A DNA stretch of 64,000 nucleotides, taken from the NCBI RefSeq assembly GCF_026210795.1, contig NC_089429.1:1674001-1738000 (forward strand), in the 5' to 3' direction. Shown one piece after another: positions 24,815 to 63,998 of this stretch (position 1 is its first letter; every line of letters starts with the position of its first letter). The notes below the pieces were generated by a model. The model made no database searches. It was not told the origin of the DNA and saw nothing but the letters and a program-made list of their open reading frames with translations. The DNA is from Rhizophagus irregularis. Its lineage: Eukaryota; Glomeromycota; Glomeromycetes; Glomerales; Glomeraceae. The translations under genes and the position numbers were made by a program.

Positions 24815-27742
24815 TGTTACGCAGTAAAAATGTTGCGCAGCAATCATGTGATATAACTGGACCCGTGATGCCGATCAATGTAGCAAATGTCGAATATGTT
24901 TGACATGTTCGATATGTTGCATATGTCCGATATGTAGAATATATAGAATATATGGAACATGTAGCATATATGGGATATATAGAACATGTAGTATATATGG
25001 AATATATAGAACATATAGGATATATAGGATATATAGCATATGTAGCATATGTTAAACATTTTTAGTTTGGAAATTTATGTATATATAGACCTGTAATTAG
25101 ACCTAAATTCAAAATATAGAACGTGTGTGAAGAATTTAATTAATAAAATGTTTACCCTTTAGTATACACCTTAATTTTAAGTTTGGTTTTATATGGTTAA
25201 TCTGCCTTCCCTTATTTGTGTCTGATTGTATGCGCCAGTGTGAAGCGATACTCTATTCACATCTGATTGGATTGATTTTAACATATACGTTGATCCTTAA
25301 AATTACCTTCTGCTTTATTAAATATAAACATTTTTTAATGTATAGCTTATTTTTAAGCTCATAAGAACTGACTCATAACAATTGGTGCCTTCTGCCAGAA
25401 ACATTCCTTACTCCACCCCAAACTCCTTAATATCGCTAAAACCCCTTTACCCTACCATAAATTTCCTACATCCATTTAAAACTTTATGATTAATGACTTT
25501 TAATGATATTTATTTTCGTGGATTTAATCCATTATTAATGAATTTGCCGATATTAAGATAGAAATAGAACTTTCTTAATAGTTTAGAGCATAAATTTAAC
25601 ATTATCAACATTTATAAACTCTTCACAATGATCTAATGATACACACTTCAAATTCCAAATTTATTATTTCGGATTAATAATAATCTTAAAGAAAAGTGGT
25701 TATTCTTAGTATTCTCTTAGGATATTATATTTCAAAAAGAGAAGGTTCTCCTCATGAATTACCAAATATATGTAATTTCCCATCTAACTTATTGTTTAAT
25801 GCACCTGAGAATTATAAGCAAGAAATTTTACCTTTAGATGCTATAGATATAATGTATACTGGCTATTATAATTTTAAACAAGCATAATGTAATTCAAGTG
25901 GCTTAAAGTTGGATCATACATCAAAATTGCAAAGATTTATCTATTTATACTTTGGAAAGATATCCTTCTTTATAACAACGAGATTGATAATAGTCTTTAA
26001 GTGTTTTATTGATGAATTTGAGAATGTATCGCCCATGATGATGCCATTGCTTTAGAATTTCATTTTTAGAGAATACCAGCAGTTAATTGATATAATGTGT
26101 CTGAGTTTTCCGATCTCATGCTCTATTTTTACTTGAAAATTTGGACAGAAATTGGACAAAGGAAAATATTACTGCTATTACGAACCTTCTTCATAACGAT
26201 AGACCATAATGATTTTCTGATAAAAAGAAAGATACCAAAAATTTGTGTAAATCTTCTATTCCATTTGGCAACAACAATGATTGTGTCTTTGACCTTATTA
26301 CATCAATCATCCATTGGACACCTGTAATTTTATCAGAAATACTTTTACTTTCTCAATCAACACAGGACTTACCCTAAAAGCAAATAGTGTATAAGAGACA
26401 ATGCCATGATACAGTATATTTGTAATATAGTATAGGGAAATTGGAGATTTTATTGCTAGAAATTATTGCAATTTTTCCCACATAGCGTAAAAAAGTAGTG
26501 CACTTAAGATCATGATGTAATGGTATGGCCATCAGTTATTGATTGGGCTAATTGAAGTTACCACTCCATAAAGAAGGTATGATACAATAAAACGAAAAAT
26601 CTTGAGGATGAATTACAGTATGTGGACCACAAGACTTGTTAATTAAATGGATAGAATCAAGTAGACGATTTTAGGATAGATTCGCAACTTTTACTTTCTT
26701 CTCTGGAAATTTCATTTTTACTTTAATCCCATCAGTTCAGAATGCTTGAAACTGTATTACCAATGATCGGATCCATAAATATTCATGTAATGAAAAATAC
26801 TTGTATCAAGACCAACCAGCAGTTATCATACCTTATCCTCCATCATTCAGCAAACACATTGGCCATGAAGAAAAATTTTGTGTGTTAAAGGAAGCAATTG
26901 AATGATCAAAACACTTCGGAAATAAAGTCTTATTGTTAACAAATTTATTCTATATGGGCCAATTTCTAGAAAAAAAATGACTGGTACTTTGCAAAGTCAT
27001 TATGCACAGTAATTATCGATACATTACCTTCAACCATTTGAATATTATATATTGAGCTTCCCGGAGTTGTTCAAATTACCAGGACTACCAACCATGATTC
27101 AGCAATTAAGTCATGAAGAATATCAAAAGTTGGTTAGAAATTTTCAACGGGAGTTGAAAACTTGAGCGGGGAGTGATGTTACGCAGTAAAAATGTTGCGC
27201 AGCAATCATGTGATATAACTGGACCCGTGATGCCGATCAATGTAGCAAATGTCGAATATGTTTGACATGTTCGATATGTTGCATATGTCCGATATGTAGA
27301 ATATATAGAATATATGGAACATGTAGCATATATGGGATATATAGAACATGTAGTATATATGGAATATATAGAACATATAGGATATATAGGATATATAGCA
27401 TATGTAGCATATGTTAAACATTTTTAGTTTGGAAATTTATGTATATATAGACCTGTAATTAGACCTAAATTCAAAATATAGAACGTGTGTGAAGAATTTA
27501 ATTAATAAAATGTTTACCCTTTAGTATACACCTTAATTTTAAGTTTGGTTTTATATGGTTAATCTGCCTTCCCTTATTTGTGTCTGATTGTATGCGCCAG
27601 TGTGAAGCGATACTCTATTCACATCTGATTGGATTGATTTTAACATATACGTTGATCCTTAAAATTACCTTCTGCTTTATTAAATATAAACATTTTTTAA
27701 TGTATAGCTTATTTTTAAGCTCATAAGAACTGACTCATAACA
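24815..27742 (+). mobile_element. LTR retrotransposon, short or decayed, with identical LTRs
   Basis: Two 566-bp direct repeats, 24815-25380 and 27177-27742, begin TGTTACGCAG and end CTCATAACA, and are identical as far as I can read. The flanks share ATAT (24811-24814 and 27743-27746), a short target duplication. After the left LTR, ATTGGTGCCTTCTGCCAG is a plausible primer-binding site; before the right LTR, GAGCGGGGAGTGA is a purine-rich polypurine tract. The 1.8-kb interior has no intact gag or pol; a 38-codon frame just before the right LTR (ELPGLPTMIQQLSHEEYQK) may be the end of a polyprotein. Identical LTRs mean very recent insertion, so it was probably mobilised in trans. It ends 50 bp from the 3' end of the FAD monooxygenase pseudogene. 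Confidence 0.88.
24880..25059. repeat. 9-bp tandem repeat inside the left LTR, exactly 20 units
   Basis: The 180 bp divide into twenty 9-mers close to GTAGAATAT/ATAGAACAT. Since 9 is a multiple of 3, a Cys/Tyr/Ile-rich frame of 71 residues stays open on the minus strand; it is a by-product of the repeat. The same 20 units are at 27242-27421 in the right LTR. Confidence 0.85.
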
Positions 27743-27792: not shown

Positions 27793-29320
27793 TTAATTCT
27801 TAAAAATTAAGTTATCCGCAAAACTATAAAAGTTTATCATAACGTTTATAACCTTTAAAATGTTGTCTCTAATAATAACGCCAAAAGGCCCAAGTGGTGT
27901 GGAAATCTTAAACGTGTCATTTCTAGATTTTAATACATCAGCAGATGTTCGTTTTAACATTTCTTTATCATATTCTTCAATAAAAGAAATATTATCATCA
28001 GTATATTTAAGTAATGCTTGAGAAAGTTTATCAACATCTTGAATAGCATTATTTGCTCCTAATCCTAATATAGGACTCATAGCATGAGCAGCATCTCCTA
28101 ATAATACGACTCGACTACTTGACCATGATTTTATAGACATTGGATCAATATCTCGCATCATTCTTCATTGTATAGGATTATAAGTTTTAAATGGAAACTT
28201 TATTGGATCATTTGGAATTGTTTTAGGTGCCAAGTCCCATAATTCTAACAATAAATTAGTCAATTCACAATCTGGTCTTAATGTTCGAATTAATCGTTTA
28301 ACATGTTCGATGACTGATGAAGGATCATTATCATCAACTTTAACTTTTTCAGATTCAACATTATCCAATTCGGAGGTATAAGAATAAACTAATGTTGCTC
28401 TATAATGAGGTTCATTTTTTTCATCATTTTGTTCTTGTTTGATTGGTATTAAGCGTATCATCATAAATGTTGAATCTCCTTTTGTTCCAAGAGTTTTACG
28501 AGCCAAAACATTTCCATGGATTTTATTTGCCTTGTCCATAAGATGTTTAGGTATAGAAATATCTGCACCAACATGGGTTATTCCATAATTAACAATTTGT
28601 AATTCAGGTAATTTTTGTTTTCATACTAATAAAAAAAAAATGTTTGTTATTTAAATTAAAAATTATGGACATTACATAAAAATATCTACTAACTTACTTG
28701 GAGAATTAATTCTGTCCGCACCAACTAAAATATTACAAAATTCTTGCGTACCATCTTCAAAAGATACCCAAACTCCTTCTTTAGTTTCTAAATATTCAAT
28801 ACATTTTTTATTCCATTGTACTGGTACATCTTCTAATAAAACATCTCTAAGTCTATCACGATAAGTGATCATTGATGATAGACCACGAGATATTTTTGCA
28901 AGATCGTAAACATCTTTAAATGGTTTAGTTGGAGGAGCAAGTAGAACATTTCCTACTTGATCAGTGATAATTATTCCATGAGTTTCTACATCAGGAACTG
29001 GATTTGGCATTGCTTTTGGAAGATTTGCAGCGATTGAGGATGGAATACAGTTTAAAAGAGATTGAGCTCCATAATTGGATAATCCTATATGATATCCTTG
29101 CCATCGATCTAACACGTGAAGATACGAGTTAGTTAACGTTGTTAACGTAATATTCAATTAAGAATTAGAAATTTATTATACCTGTAGGACTAGATTCACG
29201 TTCAAAGATTTTTACGTTGAATTCTTTTTTGTCCTTGTTCTTTATCAAAGCATGATAGAGAGAAAGTCCTCCTAAACCTGCACCGACAATAATTATCGTT
29301 GGAATTTTATCTTGTTGCAT
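27793..29320 (-). pseudogene. FAD-dependent monooxygenase, three exons, two in-frame TGA stops
   Basis: Class A flavoprotein (PHBH-like fold) monooxygenase, which would hydroxylate an unknown substrate with NAD(P)H and oxygen. Exons 29320-29182, 29108-28698 and 28625-27793 (minus strand), with GT-AG introns of 73 and 72 nt and matching phases; 460 codons. Motifs: GAGLGGLS (FAD-binding GxGxxG), GADRINSP (normally GADG), and LLGDAAHAMSPILGLGANNA (GD motif binding the FAD ribityl chain). Stops: TGA at 28623-28621, the second codon of exon 3, and TGA at 28164-28162 in NPIQ-stop-RMMRDIDP. Both sit where Arg (CGA) is expected, and the Gly-to-Arg change in GADG is also at a CpG. Otherwise the frame is intact, so inactivation is recent. 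An LTR element sits just beyond its 3' end. Confidence 0.8.
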
Positions 29321-49677: not shown

Positions 49678-52600
49678 GATGTAAGTAAATCATTTTTTAA
49701 AATCAAAGTTTCATAATTATTTTGTCATTAGATAACACTTCATTTCCCTAATCAATTACTGATCAATTATAATTCAATTAATCAGGGAGTAAGTAAATTA
49801 TTTTAAAATCAAAGTTTAATAATGATTTTGTCATTAAATAACACATCATTTCTCTAATCATCACAATTCAATTAAATTACCAGTGAGTGAGTATTAACTT
49901 TAATAATAATTTTTAACATTAAAGTTTCTGTCATTAAATAACACATCATTTTTTTAATAAAATCATTGATTAATCATAATTCAATTAAATTACCAGACGG
50001 TAAATGCATCATTTTAAAATCAAAGTTTCATAACAATTTTATCATTAATCATTCTCTAATCAATTGCTGATCAATCACAATTCAATTAAATTACCAGACT
50101 GTGAGTATAAGATTTTGTGATTATTTTTAAAATCAAAGTTTATCATTGAATAACACTTCATTTCTAATCAATCACAAATCAATTAAATTACCAGATGGTA
50201 GGTGCATCATTTATAAAACCAAAGTTTCATAATAATTTTGCCATTGAATAACACTTTATTTCTCTAATAAATTAATCAATCATAATTCAATCATCAGGGA
50301 GTAAGTAAATTATTTTAAAAATTAAAGTTACATAATGATTTTGCAATCCATTTCCCTAATCAATTACTGATCAATCATAATTCAATCATAATTCAATCAT
50401 AATTCAATCATCAGGGAGTAAGTAAATTGTTTTTAAACCAAAGTTTCATAATGATCTTGTCATTAAATAACACTTCATTTCTCTAATCAATTACTGATCA
50501 ATCACAATTCAATTAAATTTACCAGACTGTGAGTATAAAATTTCATGATCGTTTTCAAAATCAAAGTTTTATAATGATTTATCATTGAATAACTCTTCAT
50601 TTCACTAAACAATTATTGATCAATCACAATTCAATCATCAGGGAGTAAGTAAATTATTTATAAAATCAAAGTTACATAATGATTTTGCAATTCATTTCCC
50701 TAATCAATTACTGATCAATCATAATTCAATCATAATTCAATCATCAGGGAGTAAGTAAATTGTTTTTAAACCAAAGTTTCATACCGATTTTGTCATTGAA
50801 TAACACTTCATTTTTCGAATCAATTATTGATCAATTACAATTCAATTAAATTACCAGATCGTGAGTATAAAATTTCATGATTATTTTTAGAATCAAAATT
50901 TCATAATGATTTTGTCATTAATAACATGTAATTTCTCTAATCAATTATTGATCAATCAAATTCAATTAAATTACCAGACTGTGAGTATCAGATTTCATAA
51001 TCATTTTTAAATCAAAGTTTCATAATGATTTTATCATTGAATAACACTACATTTCTCTAATAAATTACTGATCAATCATAATTAAATTAATCAGAAAGTA
51101 AGTAAATTATTTTTAAAATTAAAGCCTCATAATAATTTATCATCAAATAACACATCATTTCTCTAATCAATTGCTGATTAATCACAATTTAATTAAATTA
51201 CCAGAGGGTAAGTGCATCATTTTTAAAATCAAAGGTTTATAAATGATTTTATCATTTTATCATTGAATAATAGTACTTCATTTTTCTAATCAATTACTGA
51301 TCAATCACAATTCAATTAAATCACCAGATTGTAAGTATTGGATTTCATGATCATTTTTTAAAATCAAAGTTTTATAATGATTTTGCCATTAAGTAATATT
51401 TCATACTCTAATCAATTACTGATCAATCACAATTCATTTAATTACCAGACTGTAAGTATAAGATTTCATGATCATTTTAGATCATTTTTAAAAATAAAGT
51501 TTCATAATGATTTTATCATTTAATAACACTTCATTTCTCTAATAAATTATTGACAAATAACAATTCAATTAAATTACCAGGCCGTAAGTATAAGATTTCA
51601 TTATTGTGTTTAAAACAAAGTTTCATAATGGTTTTATCATTGAATAACACTTCTCTTATCAATTGCTGATCAATCACAATTCAATTAAATTACCAGACCG
51701 TGAGTATCAGCATTTTTAAAACAAAAGTTTCATAATGATTTTGCATTGAATACTTCATATTTCTAATCAATTATTAATTAATAACAATTCACAAAATTAC
51801 CAGAACGTAAGTATTTAATATTATGATCATTTTTATAATCAAAGTTTCATAATAATTTTATCATTAAATAACACTTAATTCTTCACAATTCAATTAAATT
51901 ACAGAATGTGGGTATCAGATTTCATGATCAATTTTAAATCAAAGTTTCATAACAATTTTGCCATTAAATAACATTTCATTTCTCTAATCAATTATTGATC
52001 AATCACAATTCATTAAATTACAAGACCGTGAGTATCAAATTTCATGATCACTTTTAAAGTCAAAGTTTTATAATGATTTTATCATTGAATAATACTTCAT
52101 TCCTCTAATTAATTATTGATCAATCACAATTAAATACCAGACCGTGAGTACTAAGATTTCAGGATCATTTTTAAAATCAAATGATTTTATCATCAAATAA
52201 CACTTCATTTCCCTAACTAATTCTTGATCAATCACAATACAATTAAATTACCAGACCGTGAGTGCTAAGATTTCATGATCATTTTTAAAATCAAAGTTCA
52301 TAATAATTTATCATTAAATAACATTTCATTTCTTCAATCAATTACTGATCAATCACAATTCAATTATATTACCAGACCGTAAGTATAAAATTTCATGATA
52401 ATTTTTAAAATCAATGTTTCATTTCATAATGATTTTATCATTGAATAACACTTGATTTCTCTAATCAATTACTGATTAATCACAATTCAATTAAATTGCC
52501 AGACCGTAAGTATAATAATTTTAAAATCAATGTTTCATAATGATTTTATTATCAAATAACACTTCATTTCTCTGATTAATTACTGATAAATCGCAATTCA

Positions 52601-55600
52601 ATTAAATTACCAGACTGTGAGTATAAGATTTCATGATCATTTTTAAAATCAAATGTTCAAAATGATTTTATCATTAAATAATACTTCATTTTTCTAATCA
52701 ATTACTAATCAATCACAATTCATTAAATTACAAGACCGTGAGTATAAGATTTCATAATTATTTTAAAATCAAAGTTTTATAATGATTTGTCATTAAATAA
52801 CACATAATTTCTCCAATCAATTATTAATTGATCACAATTCAATTAAATTCCCAGAGGGTAAGTGTATCATTTTTAAAATCCAAATTTTATAATGAATTGT
52901 TATTAAATAACACATTCTCTAATCAATAATTTAATTAAATTACCAGACGGTAAGTACATAATTTTAAAATCAAAGTTACATAATGATTTTATCATTGAAT
53001 AACACTTCATTTCTCTAATAAATTACTGATTCATTAAATTACCAGACTGTAAGTATAATTATTTTTAAAATCAAAGGTTTAAAATGATTTTATTATTAAA
53101 TAACACTTTATTTCTCTAATAAATTACTGGTTATTTACAACTCAATTAAATTACCAGACCGTAAGTATAAGATTTCATGATCATTTTAAAATCAAAGTTT
53201 CATAATGATTTTATCATTAAATAACACTTCATTTCTATAATCAATTACTGATTAATCACAATTCAATTAAATTACCAGATTGTAAGTATAGGATTTCATG
53301 ATCATTTTTTAAAATCAAAGTTTTATAATGATATTATCATTAAATAAAACATCATTTCTCTAATTAATTATTGATTAATCACAATCCAATTAAATTACCA
53401 GAGGGTAAGTACATCATTTTTAAAATCAAAGTTTTATAATGATTTGCTATTAAATGACACATTATTCTCTAATTAATAATCAATTAAATTACCAGAACGT
53501 AAGTGCATCATTTTTAAATCAAAGGTTTATAATGATTTTATCATTGAATAACACTTCATTTCTCTAATCAATCATTGGTCAATCATAATTCAATTTATCA
53601 GAAAGTAAGTAAATTATTTTTCTTATAATAATTTGTCATTAAATAATATTTCATTTCTCTAATCAATTACTGATTAACCCCAATTCAATTAAATTACCAG
53701 AATGTGGGTATAAGATTTCATGATCATTTTTAAAATCAAAGTTTCATAATAATTTTGCCATTAAATAACACTTCATTTCTCTAATTAATTATTGATCAAT
53801 CACAATTCATTAAATTACAAGACCGTAAGTATCAAATTTAATTATCATTTTTAAAGTCAAGGTTTAATAATGATTTTATCATTAAATAATACTTCACTTC
53901 TCTAATCAATTACTGATCAATCACAATTCAATTAAATTACCAGATCGTGAGTACTAAGATTCATGATTATTTTTAAAATCAAATGATTTTGTCATTAAAC
54001 AACACTTTATTTCTCTAATCAATTATTGATCAATCACAATTCAATTAAATTATCAGACCGTGAGTACTAAGTTTTTATGGTCATTTTAAAATCAAAGTTT
54101 CATAATGATTTTATCATTAAATAACATTTCATTTTTTTAACCAATTACTGATCAACCACAATTCAATTAAATTACCAGACCGTGAGTACATGATTTATAA
54201 TAATTTTTAAAATCAGAGTTTCATAATGATTTTATTATTGAATAATACTTTATTTTTCTAATAAATTACTGATTAATCCCAATTCAATTAAATTACCAGA
54301 CCGTAAGTATAAAATTTCATGATAATTTTTAAAATCAATGTTTCATTTCATAATGATTTTATCATTAAATAACACTTGATTTCCCTGATTAATTATAAAT
54401 TACAATTCAATTAAATTACCAGACTGTGAGTATAAGATTTCATGATCATTTTTAAAATTAAATGTTCAAAATGATTTTGTTATTAAATAATACTTCATTT
54501 CTCTAATCAATTACTAATAAATCACAATTCATTAAATTACCAGACCGTGAGTATAAGATTTCATTATTATTTTGAAATCAAAGTTTTATAATGATTTTGT
54601 CATTAAATAATACTTCATTTTTCTAATCAATTATTGTTTAATCACAATTCAATTAAATTCCCAGAGGGTAAGTGTATCATTTTTAAAATCCGAATTTTAT
54701 AAAGAATTGTTACTAAATAACACATTCTCTAATCAATAATTTAATTAAATTACCAGACGGTAAGTGCCATTTTTAAAATTAAAGTTACATAATGATTTTA
54801 TCATTGAATAACACTTCATTTCTCTAATCAATTACTGATCAATTACAATTCAATTAAATTACCAGACTGTAAGTATAATTATTTTTAAAATCAAAGGTTT
54901 AAAATGACTTTATTAATAAATAATACTTTATTTCTCTAATAAATTACTGGTTAATCACAATTCAATTAAATTACCAGACCGTAAGTATAAGATTTCATGA
55001 TCATTTTAAAATCAAAGTTTCATGATTGTTTTATCATTAAATAACACTTTATATCTCTAATCAATTACTGATCAATCACAATTAAATTAAATTACCAGAA
55101 TGTGAGTATAAGATTTCATGATCATTTTTAAAATCAAAGTTTCATAATGCTTTATCATTGAGTAACACTTCATTTCTCTAATCAATTACTGATCAATCAT
55201 AATTCAATTAATTAGAAAGTAAATAAATTATTTTTAAAATTAAAGTCTCATAATAATTTGTCATTAAAACAACACATAATTTCTCTAATCAATTGCTAAT
55301 TAATCACAATTCAATTAATCAGAAAGTAAGTAAATTATTTTTAAAATTAAAGTCTCATAATAATTTGTCATCATTAAGTAACACATCATTTTTCTAATCA
55401 ATTGCTGATTAATCACAATTCAATTAAATTACCAGAATGTGAGTATAAGATTTCATTATCATTTTTAAAATCAAAGTTCCATAATGATTTTATCATTAAA
55501 TAAACACATCATGGCTCTAATCAATTACTGATCAATCACAATTCATTAAATTATCAAACCGTGAGTATAAAATTTCATGATCATTTTAAAATCAAAGTTT

Positions 55601-57550
55601 TATAATGATTTTGACATTAAATAACACTTTATCTCTCTAATCAATAACTGATCAATCACAATTAAATTAAATTACCAGAATGTGAGTATAAGATTTCATG
55701 ATTATTTTTAAATCAAAGTTTCATAATGATTTTATTATTTAATAACACTTCATTTCCTCTAATCAATAACTGGTCAATCACAATTCAATTAATCAGAAAG
55801 TAAGTGAATTATTTTTTAAAATTAAAGTTCCATAATAATTTGTTATTAAATAATACAACATTTTTCTAAACAATTACATTCAATTAAATTACCAGTGAGT
55901 GAGTATTAACTTTAACAATTATTTTTAAAATTAAAGTTTCTGTCATTAAATAACATTTTTCTAATTAATCACTGATTAATCACAATTCAATTAAATTACC
56001 AGACGGTAAATGCATCATTTTAAAATCAAAGTTTCATAGTGATTTTATCATTTAATAACACATCATTTCTCTAACCAATTACTGGTCAATCACAATTCAA
56101 TTAATCAGAAAGTTAGTAAATTATTTTTTAAAATTGAAGTCTCATAATAATTTGTCATTAAATAATACATCTTTTTTCTAATCATTTACTGATTAACAAT
56201 GATTCAATTAAATTACCAGTGAGTGAGTATTAAACTTTAATAGTAATTTTTTAAAATTAAAGTTTCTGTCATTAAATAACACATCATTTTTCTAATCAAT
56301 CACTGATTAATCATAATTCAATTAAATTACCAGACGGTAAATGCATCATTTTAAAATCAAAGTTTCATAATGATTTTATTATTAAATAACACTTCATTCT
56401 CTAATCAATTGCTGATCAATCACAATTTAATTAAATTACCAGACCGTGAGTATAAGTTTTCATAAGCATTTTTAAAATTATGATTTTGTCATTAAATAAC
56501 CTGATCAAATACTGATCAATTACAATTCCAGTCGGTAAGTATTCATTTTTAAAATTAGAGTTTCAATAATGATTTGTTATTAGATAATTCATCATTTTTC
56601 TAATCAATTGCTGATCAATCACAATTCAATTAAATTACCAGTCGGTAAGTGTTCATTTTTAAAATCAGAGTTTTATAATGATTTATTATTAGATAATTCA
56701 TCATTTCTCTAACAAATTGCTGATCAATCACAATTCAATTAAATTGCCAGTCGGTAAGTATTTATTTTTTAAAATCAAAGTTTCATAATGGTTTGTTATT
56801 AGATAACTGAATTCATTATTTCTCTAACAAATTGCTGATTAATTACAAATTCAATTACATTACCAGTCAGTAAGTATTCATTTTTTAAAATTAAAATTTC
56901 ATAATGATTTGTTATTAGATAATTGAATTCATCATTTTTCTAATCAATTACTGATTGATAATCACAATTTAATAACATTACCAGTGCGTGAGTATAAGAA
57001 GATTTTATGATCATTTTTAAAAATCAAAGTTTCATCATGATATTGTCATTAAATAACACTTCATTTCTCCTGATTAATTACAATTCAATTAAATTATTAG
57101 TATGTAAGTATAGGGTTTCATGATCATTTTCAAAATCAAAGTTTCATAATTATATTTTATCATTAAATAACACTTCATTTCTCTAATCAATTACTAACCA
57201 TTATAATTTAATTAATCAGAAAGTAAGTGAATTATTTTTAAAATTAAAGTCTCATAATAATTTGTCATTAATAATACATCATTTCTCTAATCAATTGCTG
57301 ATCAATCACAATTCAATTAAATTACCAGAGGGTAAGTGCATCATTTTCAAAATAAAGTTTTATGATGATTTGTTATCAAATAACACATTATTCTCTAATC
57401 AATTACTGATCAATTACAATTCAATTAAATTACCAGAGGGTAAGTGCATCACTTTTAAAATCAGAGGTTCAATATGATTTTATCATTAAATAACACTTCA
57501 TTTCTCTAATCAATGGGTAATTTTATAATCTACAATCATCACAAATTAGC
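49678..57550 (+). repeat. Array of 69 intron-microexon units (86-129 nt introns, 3-nt exons)
   Basis: Every unit has a branch-like TCTCTAATCAATTACTGAT, an acceptor CAATTAAATTACCAG, exactly three bases, then GTAAGT or GTGAGT (62 of 70 donors; the others GTAAAT x4, GTGGGT x2, GTAGGT, GTTAGT). Triplet starts: 49786 GGA, 49884 TGA, 49997 ACG, 50098 ACT, 50195 ATG, 50298 GGA, 50415 GGA, 50526 ACT, 50642 GGA, 50748 GGA, 50858 ATC, 50978 ACT, 51095 AAA, 51205 AGG, 51328 ATT, 51449 ACT, 51581 GCC, 51697 ACC, 51804 AAC, 51905 AAT, 52025 ACC, 52141 ACC, 52255 ACC, 52376 ACC, 52503 ACC, 52614 ACT, 52735 ACC, 52855 AGG, 52947 ACG, 53046 ACT, 53158 ACC, 53279 ATT, 53402 AGG, 53496 AAC, 53602 AAA, 53701 AAT, 53822 ACC, 53944 ATC, 54057 ACC, 54179 ACC, 54300 ACC, 54423 ACT, 54544 ACC, 54665 AGG, 54757 ACG, 54866 ACT, 54978 ACC, 55099 AAT, 55216 AAA, 55323 AAA, 55436 AAT, 55558 ACC, 55679 AAT, 55797 AAA, 55896 TGA, 56003 ACG, 56109 AAA, 56220 TGA, 56334 ACG, 56443 ACC, 56532 TCG, 56642 TCG, 56751 TCG, 56867 TCA, 56985 TGC, 57101 TAT, 57220 AAA, 57329 AGG, 57437 AGG. 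Each triplet is the third base of one codon plus the first two of the next. Confidence 0.9.
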
Positions 57551-60428
57551 ATTAGTAATCAAGGAGAACTTCAAAGTTAGTAAATTTGATTATATTAATT
57601 AACTTTTAAATATTAATAATTTATTTTATTAATCTGAAGGAAAATTGGAAGATGAAATAAACAAACTATCAGTACAAAGACAAATTCTGGCAGAAGATTA
57701 TAAAGAGCAAATAAAAGTTCATATTAGAGAAACTGATAAAAAATATCACAATCAAAATGTTCAATTGCAAGAAGAGATTATTAAAAGACAAGAAAAAATT
57801 AAAGAAAAGGAAAATGAAATAGCAACACTTCAGCAAAATTCTCAAAAATTAACCAAAGAAAAAAATGAACTAGAAGATAAATTAAATAAAAAAATAAGTG
57901 AGTTAGAAATTGAATTAACAAAAAAGGAAAAAATTATTGAAGTAGATAAAAAAGTCATTTATAAATATGAATACTCAAACAACTTATTACAAGAACAAAA
58001 GGAAAAATTGGAAAATGAATTAAGCAATTTAAAAGGCCAAAATCAAATTATCAAGGAAGATTTAATTCGAATTCAAGAGCATGTAAAGGTTAATACAGAA
58101 ATCAGCCAAAAACAAAATTCTCAATTACAAGAACAGATAGTTAAAAAACAAGAAATAATTAAACAAAAGGATAATGAAATAACAGCTCTTCAGCAAAGTT
58201 CTCAAAATTTGAACAAAGAAAAAACTGAACTAAAAGAGGAAATAACAGCTCTTCAGCAAAGTTCTCAAAATTTGAACAAAGAAAAAACTGAACTAAAAGA
58301 GGAAATAACAGCTCTTCAGCAAAGTTCTCAAAATTTGAACAAAGAAAAAACTGAACTAAAATTGGAAATAACAGCTCTTCAGCAAAGTTCTCAAAATTTG
58401 AACAAAGATAAAACTGAACTAAAATTGGAAATAACAGCTCTTCAGCAAAGTTCTCAAAATTTGGTTAAAGAAAAAACTGAACTAAAAGTGGAACTAACAG
58501 TAAAGGAAAGAATTATTGAAGTGGCAAATGAAAACTTAAACAACTTACAAGAAGAAAAAGGAAAATTGGAAAATGAAATAAACAAATTAAAGGAGAAAAA
58601 TCAAACTATTGAGAAAGATTTAATCCAAGTTCAAGAGCAAATAAAAGCTAATATAAAAATCAACCAAAAACAAAATGATCAATTACTACAAGAAAAAATT
58701 AAACAAAAAGAAAACGAAATAGCAACACTTCAACAAAATTCTCAAAACATAACTAAAGAAAAAACTAGACTAGAAGAGGAATTGGATAAGAAAATAAGCG
58801 AATTAGAAATTGAATTAGTAAAAAAGGAAAAAATCATTGAAACAGCTAATAAAGAAACTGCCTATTATCATGAAAGATCAAATCACTTACAAGAAGAAAA
58901 AGAAGAATTGGAAGATGAACTAGAGACACTGGAAAAGGAACTAAATCATGAAATAAAAATATTAATCAAAAATAAAGAAGAAAAACAACAAAAAATAAAT
59001 GAATTAGCTGAAGAAATGGAAAAAGAAAGATTGAGGCTAGTAAAAGTAGAAGAGGAATTAATTAAGGCTGATGAAATATTAAAAAATACTCAAATTGAAT
59101 TAGAACTTAGACAAAGTAGTGAAGAGCGGGAATTAATTATTTCTAAGGTTAAAGAATTGAAGAATAATATCAAGCAACTGGAAATTAAAAATGAAGAAAG
59201 TAAACAAAGTTTAGTTAACACACAAAGTAAATTGTCTGAAATTGAAGCCATACCATTTATCACTGATAAAATAAATAAACTTACCAAAAACAAAATTAAG
59301 CAAAAAAAAGAGTTAGAAAAGCTGAAGGAAGAATTGAAAAGTAATCAAGAACAATTAGAAAATATGGAAAAGAAGCTTAATAATAAGTTAAAGGAAATGG
59401 GGCAAATAGGTAAATTTACTATTAATATTAGTAGCAAGAATATAGCTAAACTAGGAGAATTGGTTAAAGAAAAAGAAGAATTAATCGAAAAAATTGACAA
59501 ATTAAAAAAAAATAAACTAGAAAAAGAAGAAAAAATAAAAAAACTTATGGAGAAAATTCAAGATGAAGACTGGAAGAAAAAGTGTCAAGGATTTCAGGAA
59601 ATAATAGACAAGAAAAATCAGATAATAGAAGAATTTACTAAAAAACTACCTAGAAAAATATTACTAATTGGTTGCACAGGTAGTGGTAAATCTACTTTGG
59701 CTAATGTATTGACTAGTACTAACAAATTTAAAGAAAGCAACTATTCTATTAGCCAAACTAAAACAATCCAAAGATGTCAATTTGTTGAAAAGGAGATAAT
59801 CTATGAAGTAATTGATACTATTGGCTTAAATGATACTAAACTAAGTCGGGAAGATATTTTATATAAATTAGCTGAGTTGGCTCGTGAATTAAAGGATGGT
59901 TTGCATCAAATTCTTTTAGTTAATAATGGCCGCTTTACTGAGGAAGAAATCCAAGTTTATAAAATACTAGAAACTGTTCTTTTTGATGAAAATGTGAAAA
60001 ACTATACCACAATTGTACGAACTAACTTTGAGAAGTTTGAAGATGAGGAAGAATGCCAAAACAATCAAAGATTATTAATTGAAGAAAAATCTCGAATAAT
60101 GGCCATAATTAAAAACTGTAATTTTTTTATTCATTTAGATAATCCTTCAAATGATATTAGTAAAAGAAAAAAGTCAAAAGCTATCCTATTAAACCATTTG
60201 AATAAGCAGATAGGAGTTTACAGGCCAAGTAACTTGGAAAAATTAAATGAAAGAATTATGGATTATATGAAAAATGAGAACCGAGAACTAGTTATTCAGG
60301 AAATGGATAAGCATGTTTCGAAATTTGAAGATAAATTATCTAATTTAGGACAAATTGGCTCATTTATTTCTGGATTAGCAGCAGTAGCAGCTATTATTGT
60401 TCCATTGGTTTCTTGTAATATAATGTAG
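49679..60428 (+). CDS. Predicted 72-exon gene: 69 three-base microexons, then coiled-coil AIG1-type GTPase
   Basis: Exon 1 ends at 49680 with AT; exons 2-70 are 3 nt each; exon 71 is 57550-57575; exon 72 is 57640-60428. Total about 1,007 residues. The microexons give MDERLWEELEESLKG, two modules IPPPPPLPGRLP and IPSPPPLPGRLP, and a basic end RNERPRRRHAIKGG; exon 71 adds ISNQGELQ. Exon 72 encodes a long coiled coil (to about residue 745) with five 21-residue repeats (EITALQQSSQNLNKEKTELK...), then a GTPase: GCTGSGKST (G1), DTIGL (G3), IVRTNF (G4-like), as in AIG1/GIMAP/Toc proteins, and a hydrophobic C-terminus (GLAAVAAIIVPLVSC) that could anchor it in a membrane. The large exon has no in-frame ATG before 59016 (457 codons in), so it needs an upstream start. 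The GTPase part is sure; the microexon part is an inference from splice signals and frame. Confidence 0.75.
58176..58490 (+). repeat. Five tandem 63-bp repeats in the coiled-coil coding region
   Basis: Copies start at 58176, 58239, 58302, 58365 and 58428 and are nearly identical. Each encodes 21 residues, exactly three heptads, so copy-number change lengthens the coiled coil without shifting register or frame. Related, more diverged versions (EIATLQQNSQ...) occur at about 57,815 and 58,715. Confidence 0.9.
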
Positions 60429-63228: not shown

Positions 63229-63998
63229 TAGAGGTTTGGACCGGTTAAGCTTAACCGGTTAATTAACCGGTTAAAACATTTGTTAACTGGTTACAGCAAA
63301 TTTCAAAATATACGGGACACTTGAGAAATTTGATTGTCGGGTTGTCGGGTAGCCGGGTTACTCGGCAGTAGGTTGTTTATTAGAAAAGTATAAATAACAC
63401 GTGACGAGTATAATGAATAGTAGTATATCAGATTATATAATAACCTACTGCCGGCTACCCGACAACCCGACAATCAAATTTCTCAAGTGTCCCGTATATT
63501 TTGAAATTTGCTGTAAAAAACAATTTTTAACCGGTTAAATTATCCGGTTAAATTATCCGGTTAAATTAATCGGTTAAATTAATCGGTTAAATTAACTGGT
63601 TAAAATACTGAAAAATATTTGTAATTCTGGCCAAATTTACAGTGCCGGCCAGAATTATAAATCACGGGACTTCAGATAAAAGTTTAGCCACCAGGTTAGA
63701 TACTAACGACGAGGTGGTGGAATTTTTGTGTTATATAAAATTCATAATGCGGGCCAAAATTCATAGTGCCGGCCAGACAATTTGGCCTGAATTTCGTCTT
63801 TCAGCTAAAGTTTCGTTTCGATTAGTTAGAGTTTTGATCTGGCCTAATTTTGGCCGGGATTAAAAATATATTTGATGCTAATCCTGGCCGAATTTTAATG
63901 CTGGCTAGGATTGAGTTTTAACCGGTTAATTAACCGGTTAAAGGTTTGGTTAACCGGTTATTAACCGTTAAGACTTTTTGGACCGGTTCCAACCTCTA
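63229..63998. mobile_element. Composite repeat with TAGAGGTTTGGACCGG ends and an internal fold-back
   Basis: Left end TAGAGGTTTGGACCGGTT and right end, on the minus strand, TAGAGGTTGGAACCGG. The interior is rich in the palindrome TTAACCGGTTAA and 13-bp CGGTTAAATTATC-like repeats (63,530-63,605), plus GGCC-containing motifs (CAGTGCCGGCCAGAATT and variants, 63,630-63,900). It holds a long inverted repeat with arms 63294-63374 and 63442-63513. No coding sequence; the frame at 63642-63863 is a by-product. Confidence 0.6.
63294..63513. repeat. Long near-perfect inverted repeat (72- and 81-bp arms)
   Basis: Left arm begins CAGCAAATTTCAAAATATAC and right arm ends with its complement; the arms match almost throughout, apart from about 9 extra bases (around GTTACTCGG) in the left arm. 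The spacer is about 67 bp. A transcript would fold into a long hairpin. Confidence 0.85.

Follow-up and report, generated by a model that had tools for sequence, protein, structure and literature searches.

A Putative Array of Consecutive One-Codon Exons in a Coiled-Coil/AIG1 GTPase Gene of Rhizophagus irregularis

Can the start of a protein be encoded one codon per exon, over tens of exons in a row? The question is raised by a locus on contig NC_089429.1 of Rhizophagus irregularis (assembly GCF_026210795.1), where 64,000 nucleotides of the forward strand, positions 1,674,001 to 1,738,000, were analyzed (the window; coordinates below are window positions, and all window features described lie on the forward strand). 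We regard it as quite probable that the array found here forms the 5′ portion of a protein-coding gene, that it specifies about 70 residues with a single codon in each exon, and that it grew by tandem duplication. The anatomy of the array, its conservation pattern, the consistency of its frame and its recurrence in the genome are demonstrated in what follows.

The array comprises 70 triplets between 49678 (GAT) and 57439 (AGG). An initial annotation had described each unit as a splice acceptor, a gap of exactly three bases and a GT donor. The donor was found directly 3′ of the triplet in all 70 units, whereas an AG lies directly 5′ of it in only 69; the unit at 55558–55560 (triplet ACC) carries AA instead, an exception that had gone unmentioned. 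Skipping this unit would cost one residue and keep the frame. The presumed first exon ends in the bases AT at 49679–49680, and an intron would split the start codon between this AT and the following G (the status as first exon is inferred, and the 5′ end is undetermined). Between 49681 and 57439, 69 introns alternate with the same number of 3-nt exons, the first exon being GGA (49786) and the last AGG (57437). The introns measure 86–129 nt (mean 109.4, the intron of the AA unit counted), exactly the range that had been claimed, and the three TGA triplets reported earlier are located at 49884, 55896 and 56220. A recursive splice site is a zero-length exon, with the acceptor AG abutting the donor GT; the window units are not of this kind, as three bases intervene. 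With 3 nt in 70/70 units, they satisfy the length limit for a microexon, ≤30 nt between AG and GT, as defined in the available part of the source (PMC8042270).

Read from the AT at 49679–49680, the triplets give MDERLWEELEESLKGLLPPTIPPPPPLPGRLPLGTKIPSPPPLPGRLPIKKIPINERNERPRRRHAIKG. The ATG-initiated frame without stops that had been proposed is borne out, with 0 stops in 69 codons; the alternative phases contain stops in 3/70 and 5/69. Codon usage is coding-like in the predicted phase alone (+0.36 bits per codon; negative in both others). The open frame by itself is weak evidence: a stop-free outcome was obtained in 25% of triplet-order shuffles (P 0.25) and in 16% of column-independent draws. 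The last triplet is not directly in frame with the exon at 57640, and a small exon of 26 nt (57550–57575), or of 20 nt if it begins at 57556, is required; both acceptors fit. Given either length, the array frame crosses a presumed 64-nt intron (57576–57639, GTTAGT...GAAG; inferred) and enters the last exon (57640–60428, stop codon included), which encodes a coiled coil and an AIG1 GTPase in an open frame of 931 codons. The AIG1 domain (PF04548, E 1.7e-17) lies at 59655–60206, residues 675–858 of the frame opening at 57633. The predicted start, MDERLWEELEES, is acidic and, judged by eye without a predictor, not signal-like.

A branch-site-like CTRAY motif is present in 61 of the 67 window introns scored, versus 16% of random 48-mers. 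Exon position 1 is conserved among the window units (A in 54/70), and the information at positions 2 and 3 was 1.74 and 1.98 bits. Pairs of units with ∼5% intron difference are 40% different in their exon bases, and an excess of exon differences was observed in every bin; relative to 20 ungapped flank columns it was 6.9-fold at 1/20, dropping to 1.3-fold at 12/20. Variability close to that of the exon was also seen at +10 to +12 downstream of the triplet (4.58 versus 4.73 bits) and is ascribed to indels. Triplets more variable than introns, between an AG and a GT that hardly change, are not expected of a passive satellite, and the units do not show the even divergence and the lack of frame or splice constraint that would mark a plain satellite.

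One-codon-exon arrays recur across the genome. A generic pattern of consecutive 3-nt exons gave 2,945 matches genome-wide (1,508+1,437; control 66+0), compared with 14 for the 4-nt version (8+6; control 1+1). The two of these 14 regions that were inspected, L085 and L086, appear by eye to be arrays of roughly 40-nt rather than 4-nt exons. The larger total may include some tens of simple-repeat matches, as its control indicates, and the first 100 places among the matches listed are all on C1 and C2. A 3-nt search with shorter introns (95+76 matches; control 92+1) was compromised by matches to a simple repeat, GTGAGT, on C3, and its counts were discarded.

Introns of the window family also occur in a kinase gene on C17, in an array of 19 units whose frame joins the exons at both sides. 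Two consecutive units with CCAG before the triplet occur at 27 places in the genome, 24 in the window array and 3 in that of C17 (0 in the reversed control), which exceeds what chance would give. DNA searches with both arrays, in which very common words are skipped, detected the family nowhere outside C1 and C17; because of the skipped words, this restriction is not proof of absence. An exact 33-nt pattern modelled on one unit matched nothing, the window itself included. When the window peptide was used to look for a paralogue encoded without introns in one uninterrupted stretch, it matched only the exon downstream of its own array and, weakly, two other places (E 0.31 and 6.6). Comparison with relatives was confined to paralogues inside the same genome. 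For the C17 protein, 150 matches were scored among 2,704 candidates; most start at about residue 27 or later, past nearly all of the array-coded part (approximately residues 10–29), and six start at residues 12–26 with 38%–42% identity. The AIG1 gene has another copy on C20, which was considered as an array-less outgroup and rejected, since it matches only from window position 57796 on and is uninformative about the array.

Arrays built from a different intron family occur in the genes of one family, for which 54 start signatures were found. All six of these loci that were read through lead into kinase exons, the frame being restored by a 1-nt exon. The signature of this 1-nt exon occurs at 11 loci (control 0), and at 10 of them the frame into the kinase exon is clean. 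The 472 units chained automatically in 11 arrays contain 1 stop in the predicted phases. The nine kinase-family arrays also lack stops in the carry-0 phase, and stops there exclude just one of the two other phases; codon usage slightly favors the carry-2 phase of L026 and L030x, which contains 6 and 4 stops. The CTRAY motif was found in merely 13 of 27 introns of L028. Conservation was compared at the 40 loci with five exons resolved, exons 1 and 2 having belonged to the search pattern. The ratio of exon to intron differences was 0.36 for exon 1, rose to 2.4-fold and 3.3-fold for exons 2 and 3, and was slightly below the intron level for exons 4 and 5 (0.73 and 0.81), where ATT and GGT are kept in 37 and 36 loci, respectively, and the introns are about equally conserved. 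These counts may be too high, since 45 of the 54 signatures were analyzed and the nine omitted (on C7, C18, C19, C20, C21, C23 and C24, and two on C26) are a nonrandom set, several looking more divergent.

How such an array may have grown is suggested by an alignment within the window array, which shows two copies of a block of 12 to 13 units. The collinear block of 12 exons (AAT ... ACC) occupies triplet positions 51905–53160 in the first copy and 53701–54980 in the second, and 1 of 36 triplet bases has changed between them (ACC to ATC). This figure was read from the alignment for the 12 core exons only, whereas the class counts for the full alignment include a misaligned tail; there, exon (5/45) and intron (165/1483) bases changed at equal rates, and purifying selection on the triplets is not demonstrated, either by this block or by the 40 kinase-family loci. 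Both the collinear block and the stretches in which one triplet is repeated speak for tandem duplication, and the best reading of the arrays would be real one-codon exons grown in this way.

Other explanations have to be weighed against these data. Mobile introns, repeatedly inserted into pre-existing coding sequence at one per codon, would leave similar introns between different triplets, as is observed, and introner-like elements are known in fungi according to the available part of one report (PMC4457414). Such elements place near-identical introns in many unrelated genes; the window family was found only at C1 and C17, within the limits of the search, and the duplicated block and equal-triplet runs favor tandem duplication. 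Insertion at every third nucleotide is not known to us, and we consider this origin barely plausible. There is a slim chance that the units are a non-coding tandem repeat, an intron-derived satellite upstream of the coiled-coil/AIG1 gene or inside one long intron of it, with meaningless triplets. Tandem Repeats Finder does class the units as repeats (64%–90% matches), no RNA evidence for splicing exists and the stop-free frame carries little weight alone. Such a satellite is, however, hard to reconcile with triplets that vary more than introns between fixed splice sites, with the genome-wide preference for a spacing of 3 over 4 and with paralogues that close their frame through a 1-nt exon; moreover, if the first exon ends at 49680, skipping the whole array would join AT to C or T and abolish the start codon.

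It is also improbable, though less easily dismissed, that the layout is genuine in the genome and the window copy is a decaying or silent pseudogene in the making. The broken acceptor at 55558 would fit, as would the C20 copy, which is truncated before the array, is interrupted, contains stops and has no array. Yet the remaining acceptors and all donors are intact, the frame is open across both the array and the 931-codon exon, and omitting the broken unit would not shift the frame. A mainly regulatory purpose, in which dozens of introns delay or limit mRNA maturation and the encoded residues matter little, would account for splice sites that are held while triplets are free to vary, and the downstream parts are kinases and a GTPase. 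We think it quite improbable, given predicted phases nearly without stops and the retention of ATT and GGT at exons 4 and 5 of the paralogous loci, an argument tempered by the similar conservation of the introns there.

The preferred reading, genuine one-codon exons in a coding gene, implies a specific mechanism. Each unit would pair one 3-nt exon with a short intron that is complete in itself, with a GTRAGT donor, a CTRAY-like branch site and a YAG acceptor. The introns would probably be recognized by intron definition and then removed serially, so that what adjoins the following donor is, at each step, the lengthening exon rather than an isolated triplet; this serial logic may be akin to recursive splicing. 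The array would expand by tandem duplication of single units and of blocks, and, since each unit contributes exactly three bases, the gain, loss or skipping of a unit preserves the frame. In the predicted product, the coiled-coil/AIG1 GTPase would carry an N-terminal extension that begins acidic, passes through two proline-rich modules and ends in a basic tail. The same layout, with the other intron family and the phase-restoring 1-nt exon, would precede the kinase exons of the gene family in this genome. On the whole, the sequence-level tests support the original proposal of real consecutive 3-nt exons forming an open frame; splicing and its order, translation and the suggestion that the segment serves as a rapidly evolving linker or region of interaction rest on inference, in the absence of transcript or protein evidence.

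Genes divided among many small exons are known from animals. The micro-exon genes of schistosomes have longer exons, whose lengths are divisible by three and reach tens of bases, and encode secreted proteins; the bicycle genes of aphids have many small exons of several codons, secreted products and introns that are not tandem copies. The reports cited below were available in part, and the comparisons are limited to those parts. Like schistosome micro-exon genes (PMC5825161), the arrays divide coding sequence among many very short exons, and consecutive short exons with lengths in multiples of three are found in both the window and the kinase-family arrays; the arrays differ in having one codon per exon and in belonging to kinases and a GTPase. 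Bicycle genes (PMC9168663) are a rapidly evolving family in which the exon-intron layout outlives the sequence, a likeness to the arrays. The 3-nt microexon of Drosophila homothorax (PMC7392893) similarly lies between ordinary splice sites, but microexons of this type occur one per gene, whereas those of R. irregularis stand tens in a row among look-alike introns. Single-nucleotide exons of Arabidopsis APC11 (PMC4674806) and of CYP621A from Fusarium, also a fungus (PMC12940212), are necessary for the frame, as in the kinase family; elsewhere they are known singly, whereas here they lie downstream of a 3-nt-exon array and recur across a family, and their splicing has been demonstrated in Arabidopsis and is only inferred here. 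SP7-like effectors of R. irregularis, probably the same fungus, are likewise repeat-bearing genes recognized by a conserved intron (PMC11333574), although what is described is an intron before the first repeat, not a microexon array. Intron gain by tandem genomic duplication (PMC4974935) also multiplies introns, but in a single event, whereas in the arrays one gene can accumulate tens of copies, each bringing a codon.

Thus 3-nt and 1-nt exons are known singly; what would be new is 3-nt exons tens in a row, recurring across a genome. To our knowledge, no coding sequence would be more finely divided than tens of consecutive one-codon exons with tandem-copy introns. The arrays raise the question of how the spliceosome handles exons too small for factors at both sides, and they show a route by which proteins may grow by single codons. 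Because such exons defeat the usual aligners, the N-terminal segments of a gene family may be absent from the gene models for this fungus. Nanopore RNA-Seq exists for R. irregularis DAOM197198 (PMC10234402, seen in part), and the splicing of the arrays could be checked with existing RNA data. It is conceivable, if unlikely, that the arrays are a system for codon-by-codon diversification, for example in recognition: because any subset of one-codon exons is frame-neutral and units duplicate freely, many N-terminal splice variants per gene would be possible. If so, the length and sequence of an array would evolve one residue at a time, and the ∼2,900 such exons, with kinase and GTPase genes among those read, would serve to generate variable regions in signaling proteins of an obligate plant symbiont.

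The window array comprises 70 triplets between positions 49678 and 57439, separated by 69 introns of 86–129 nt; the triplet count, spacing, phase, and peptide described in the initial annotation are correct. GT lies directly 3′ of all 70 triplets and AG directly 5′ of 69, the exception being 55558, where AA is found. Among the 70 exon-aligned units, the donor never varies at +1, +2, and +6 and has G at +5 in 66, and the three exon positions carry 1.00, 1.74, and 1.98 bits, respectively. The motif CTRAY occurs 12–60 nt 5′ of the acceptor in 61 of the 67 scored introns, compared with 16% of random 48-mers from the window; in six other scored arrays its frequency ranged from 13/15 down to 13/27. 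Elsewhere in the window, two identical 300-nt copies (24815–25114 and 27177–27476), 2,362 bases apart, contain a 9-bp-based ATATATAGA repeat, three adjoining open frames on the minus strand (27793–29157) resemble by eye pieces of an FAD-dependent monooxygenase, and six copies of TTAACCGGTTAAA form a short tandem repeat at 63527–63604.

Read in the phase set by AT/G (slashes mark splice boundaries), the window array has no stop in 69 codons, and the other phases have 3 and 5. By itself, a stop-free reading is weak evidence (P 0.25 upon shuffling the order). A codon-usage model trained on 3,676 codons from the other open frames of the window gave +0.36 bits/codon for the AT/G phase versus −0.55 and −0.31 for the others. 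A direct join of the array to the exon at 57640 is out of frame, and the two are brought into phase (..AIKGGISNQGELQRKLEDEINKL.. or ..AIKGGNQGELQRKLEDEINKL..) by a 26- or 20-nt exon whose 3′ end is at 57575. The 931-codon frame downstream of the array encodes a coiled coil and an AIG1 GTPase domain (PF04548, E 1.7e-17). A second copy of this coiled-coil/AIG1 gene on another contig (C20:1384400-1396800; L024, L025), 88–91% identical in its longer pieces, is split by a long insert, has stops in one matched piece, and is without an array.

The genome (146,748,485 bases, 32 contigs), of which the window is C1:1674001–1738000, was searched with a generic 3-nt-exon pattern, (GTRAGT, 75–105 bases, AG, three bases, GTRAGT) twice over, leaving the intron sequence free. 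This yielded 1,508 forward and 1,437 reverse matches, compared with 66 and 0 for the reversed control; a four-base version gave 8 and 6 (control, 1 and 1). The first 100 matches listed all come from contigs C1 and C2, most of them grouped in clusters that span several kilobases. The triplet array observed in the initial annotation is confirmed, and such arrays are far more widespread (2,945 pattern matches, 54 family starts) than could have been known from it. Eight further loci that were read form one gene family, with a short first exon (e.g., MALSNDK, MAQSNDK), a second exon that is small and acidic, 3-nt exons (28–56 in the five arrays read to the end), and kinase exons, those of locus L026 matching PK_Tyr_Ser-Thr (E 6.2e-27). 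The signature of the first two triplets of this family marks 54 starts genome-wide (control, 0), and a kinase exon follows the array in all six read to the array end (L026, L027, L029, L030+L080, L083, L084). Of 45 starts examined, 40 had five exons resolved by script. Exon 4 is ATT in 37/40 and exon 5 GGT in 36/40, neither having been part of the query, and the phase-1 peptide of the first five exons is most commonly ALNDW (13/40) or ALENW (8/40), with W at the fifth place in 39. In a few places (L026 1301, L030 3184 onwards, L049), GC seems to replace GT in the donors of array units (GCAAGT, GCGAGT). At two other loci, L085 (C19:3260950-3261650) and L086 (C2:3700350-3700950), similar exons of ∼40 nt alternate in tandem with similar introns of ∼75 nt; the L086 donor region, AAGATTCGTAAGTACGAATCTT, is an inverted repeat spanning the splice site.

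Exons 1 and 2 of the kinase family, found by script at 30 of the 45 loci, leave one base over, the phase is unchanged through the 3-nt exons, and the kinase exon requires two carried bases. At 11 loci (control, 0), TTTAG/A/GTAAGTATAA is present 3′ of the last triplet’s donor, GGTAAGT. In ten of these the kinase exon that begins at the next acceptor reads A-codon-codon, which makes G+A+A a codon and the frame correct; the eleventh, L078, has a longer intron and a similar exon at TATAG/G, in frame by eye. The one-base exon is also present in L028, which is not among the 11 and whose kinase exon has an insertion, and, with a differing donor flank, in L030+L080, L081, and L082. Closure of the frame only through a spliced single base, across paralogues, is the strongest in silico sign of splicing obtained, in the absence of RNA data.

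Four further arrays (54, 28, 47, and 51 units), chained by a single automatic scoring without editing, each have 0 stops in the predicted phase and in carry-0, and 8, 6, 7, and 4 in carry-2; all four come from one family, and the ends of two (L083, L084) had been read beforehand. The chain of L081 is incomplete, with nine gaps >135 nt and a start inside the array. Across 11 arrays and 472 units, the predicted phases contain a single stop, in L029, which would vanish with a unit missed by the script (TATAG/GGA/GTAATA). The carry-0 phase is also open in the nine kinase-family arrays, a real limitation; it is mismatched to both preceding exons and to the following exon. Codon usage favors the predicted phase in five of seven scored arrays; in L026 and L030+L080 it is slightly outscored by the stop-ridden carry-2 phase.

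The window intron family was found by DNA search at only one other place in the genome, on C17. There, the exon ATGAGCGAAGATTCACCCAATTTAGAGGA, 19 triplets, and a kinase-gene exon form a single open frame, MSEDSPNLEERLKRLEDLQKNQPHQPLQNFNSGINCYICG.., whose phase matches that of the window array. The fitting acceptor is ATTAG/T; with CAG/GT, 16 bases 3′ of it, the frame would be lost. In both arrays the most variable three columns between −30 and +22 are the exon, by a clear margin on C17 (5.26 versus 3.91 bits) and a narrow one in the window array (4.73 versus 4.58 at +10 to +12, columns whose register is blurred by indels). In 36 pairs of units with ∼5% of aligned intron bases differing, 40% of the exon bases differ, and an exon excess is seen in both arrays in every bin holding more than a few pairs. 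Measured against 20 ungapped flank columns, a control in which gaps cannot flatter the result, the window-array excess declines steadily from 6.9-fold at one difference to 1.3-fold at twelve. The triplets have therefore diversified between splice sites that have been held and introns that remain alike, a combination that, judged from the sequences, a functionless repeat should not produce.

Single 3-nt and 1-nt exons are already recorded in earlier reports (PMC7392893, PMC4674806, PMC12940212). The literature covered, which leaves out most subscription journals, yielded no account of 3-nt exons in arrays, the available passages of the R. irregularis genome paper (PMC10234402) make no mention of 3-nt or 1-nt exons, and a search for Rhizophagus microexon literature found none, the match being on Rhizoctonia instead. 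The initial reading, real consecutive 3-nt exons in an open frame, is supported, short of RNA proof.

Every array unit appears to bear signals for intron-defined splicing, and a lone 3-nt exon would hardly offer room for factors on both sides. Serial removal of introns from one end would, by inference, leave a full-length exon abutting the next donor. Pairing with U1 would predict that G at −1 makes up for a lost +5 G. The triplet preceding GTAAAT donors ends in G in 16/16 cases in L029 and 3/4 in the window; a missing +5 G thus seems to be tolerated when the exon has G at −1, the copies being related and the independent events few. The window array contains a duplicated block of 12–13 units, an instance of growth by duplication. 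Because units add three bases, the gain, loss, or skipping of a unit, or a broken splice site such as that at 55558, would be neutral for the frame.
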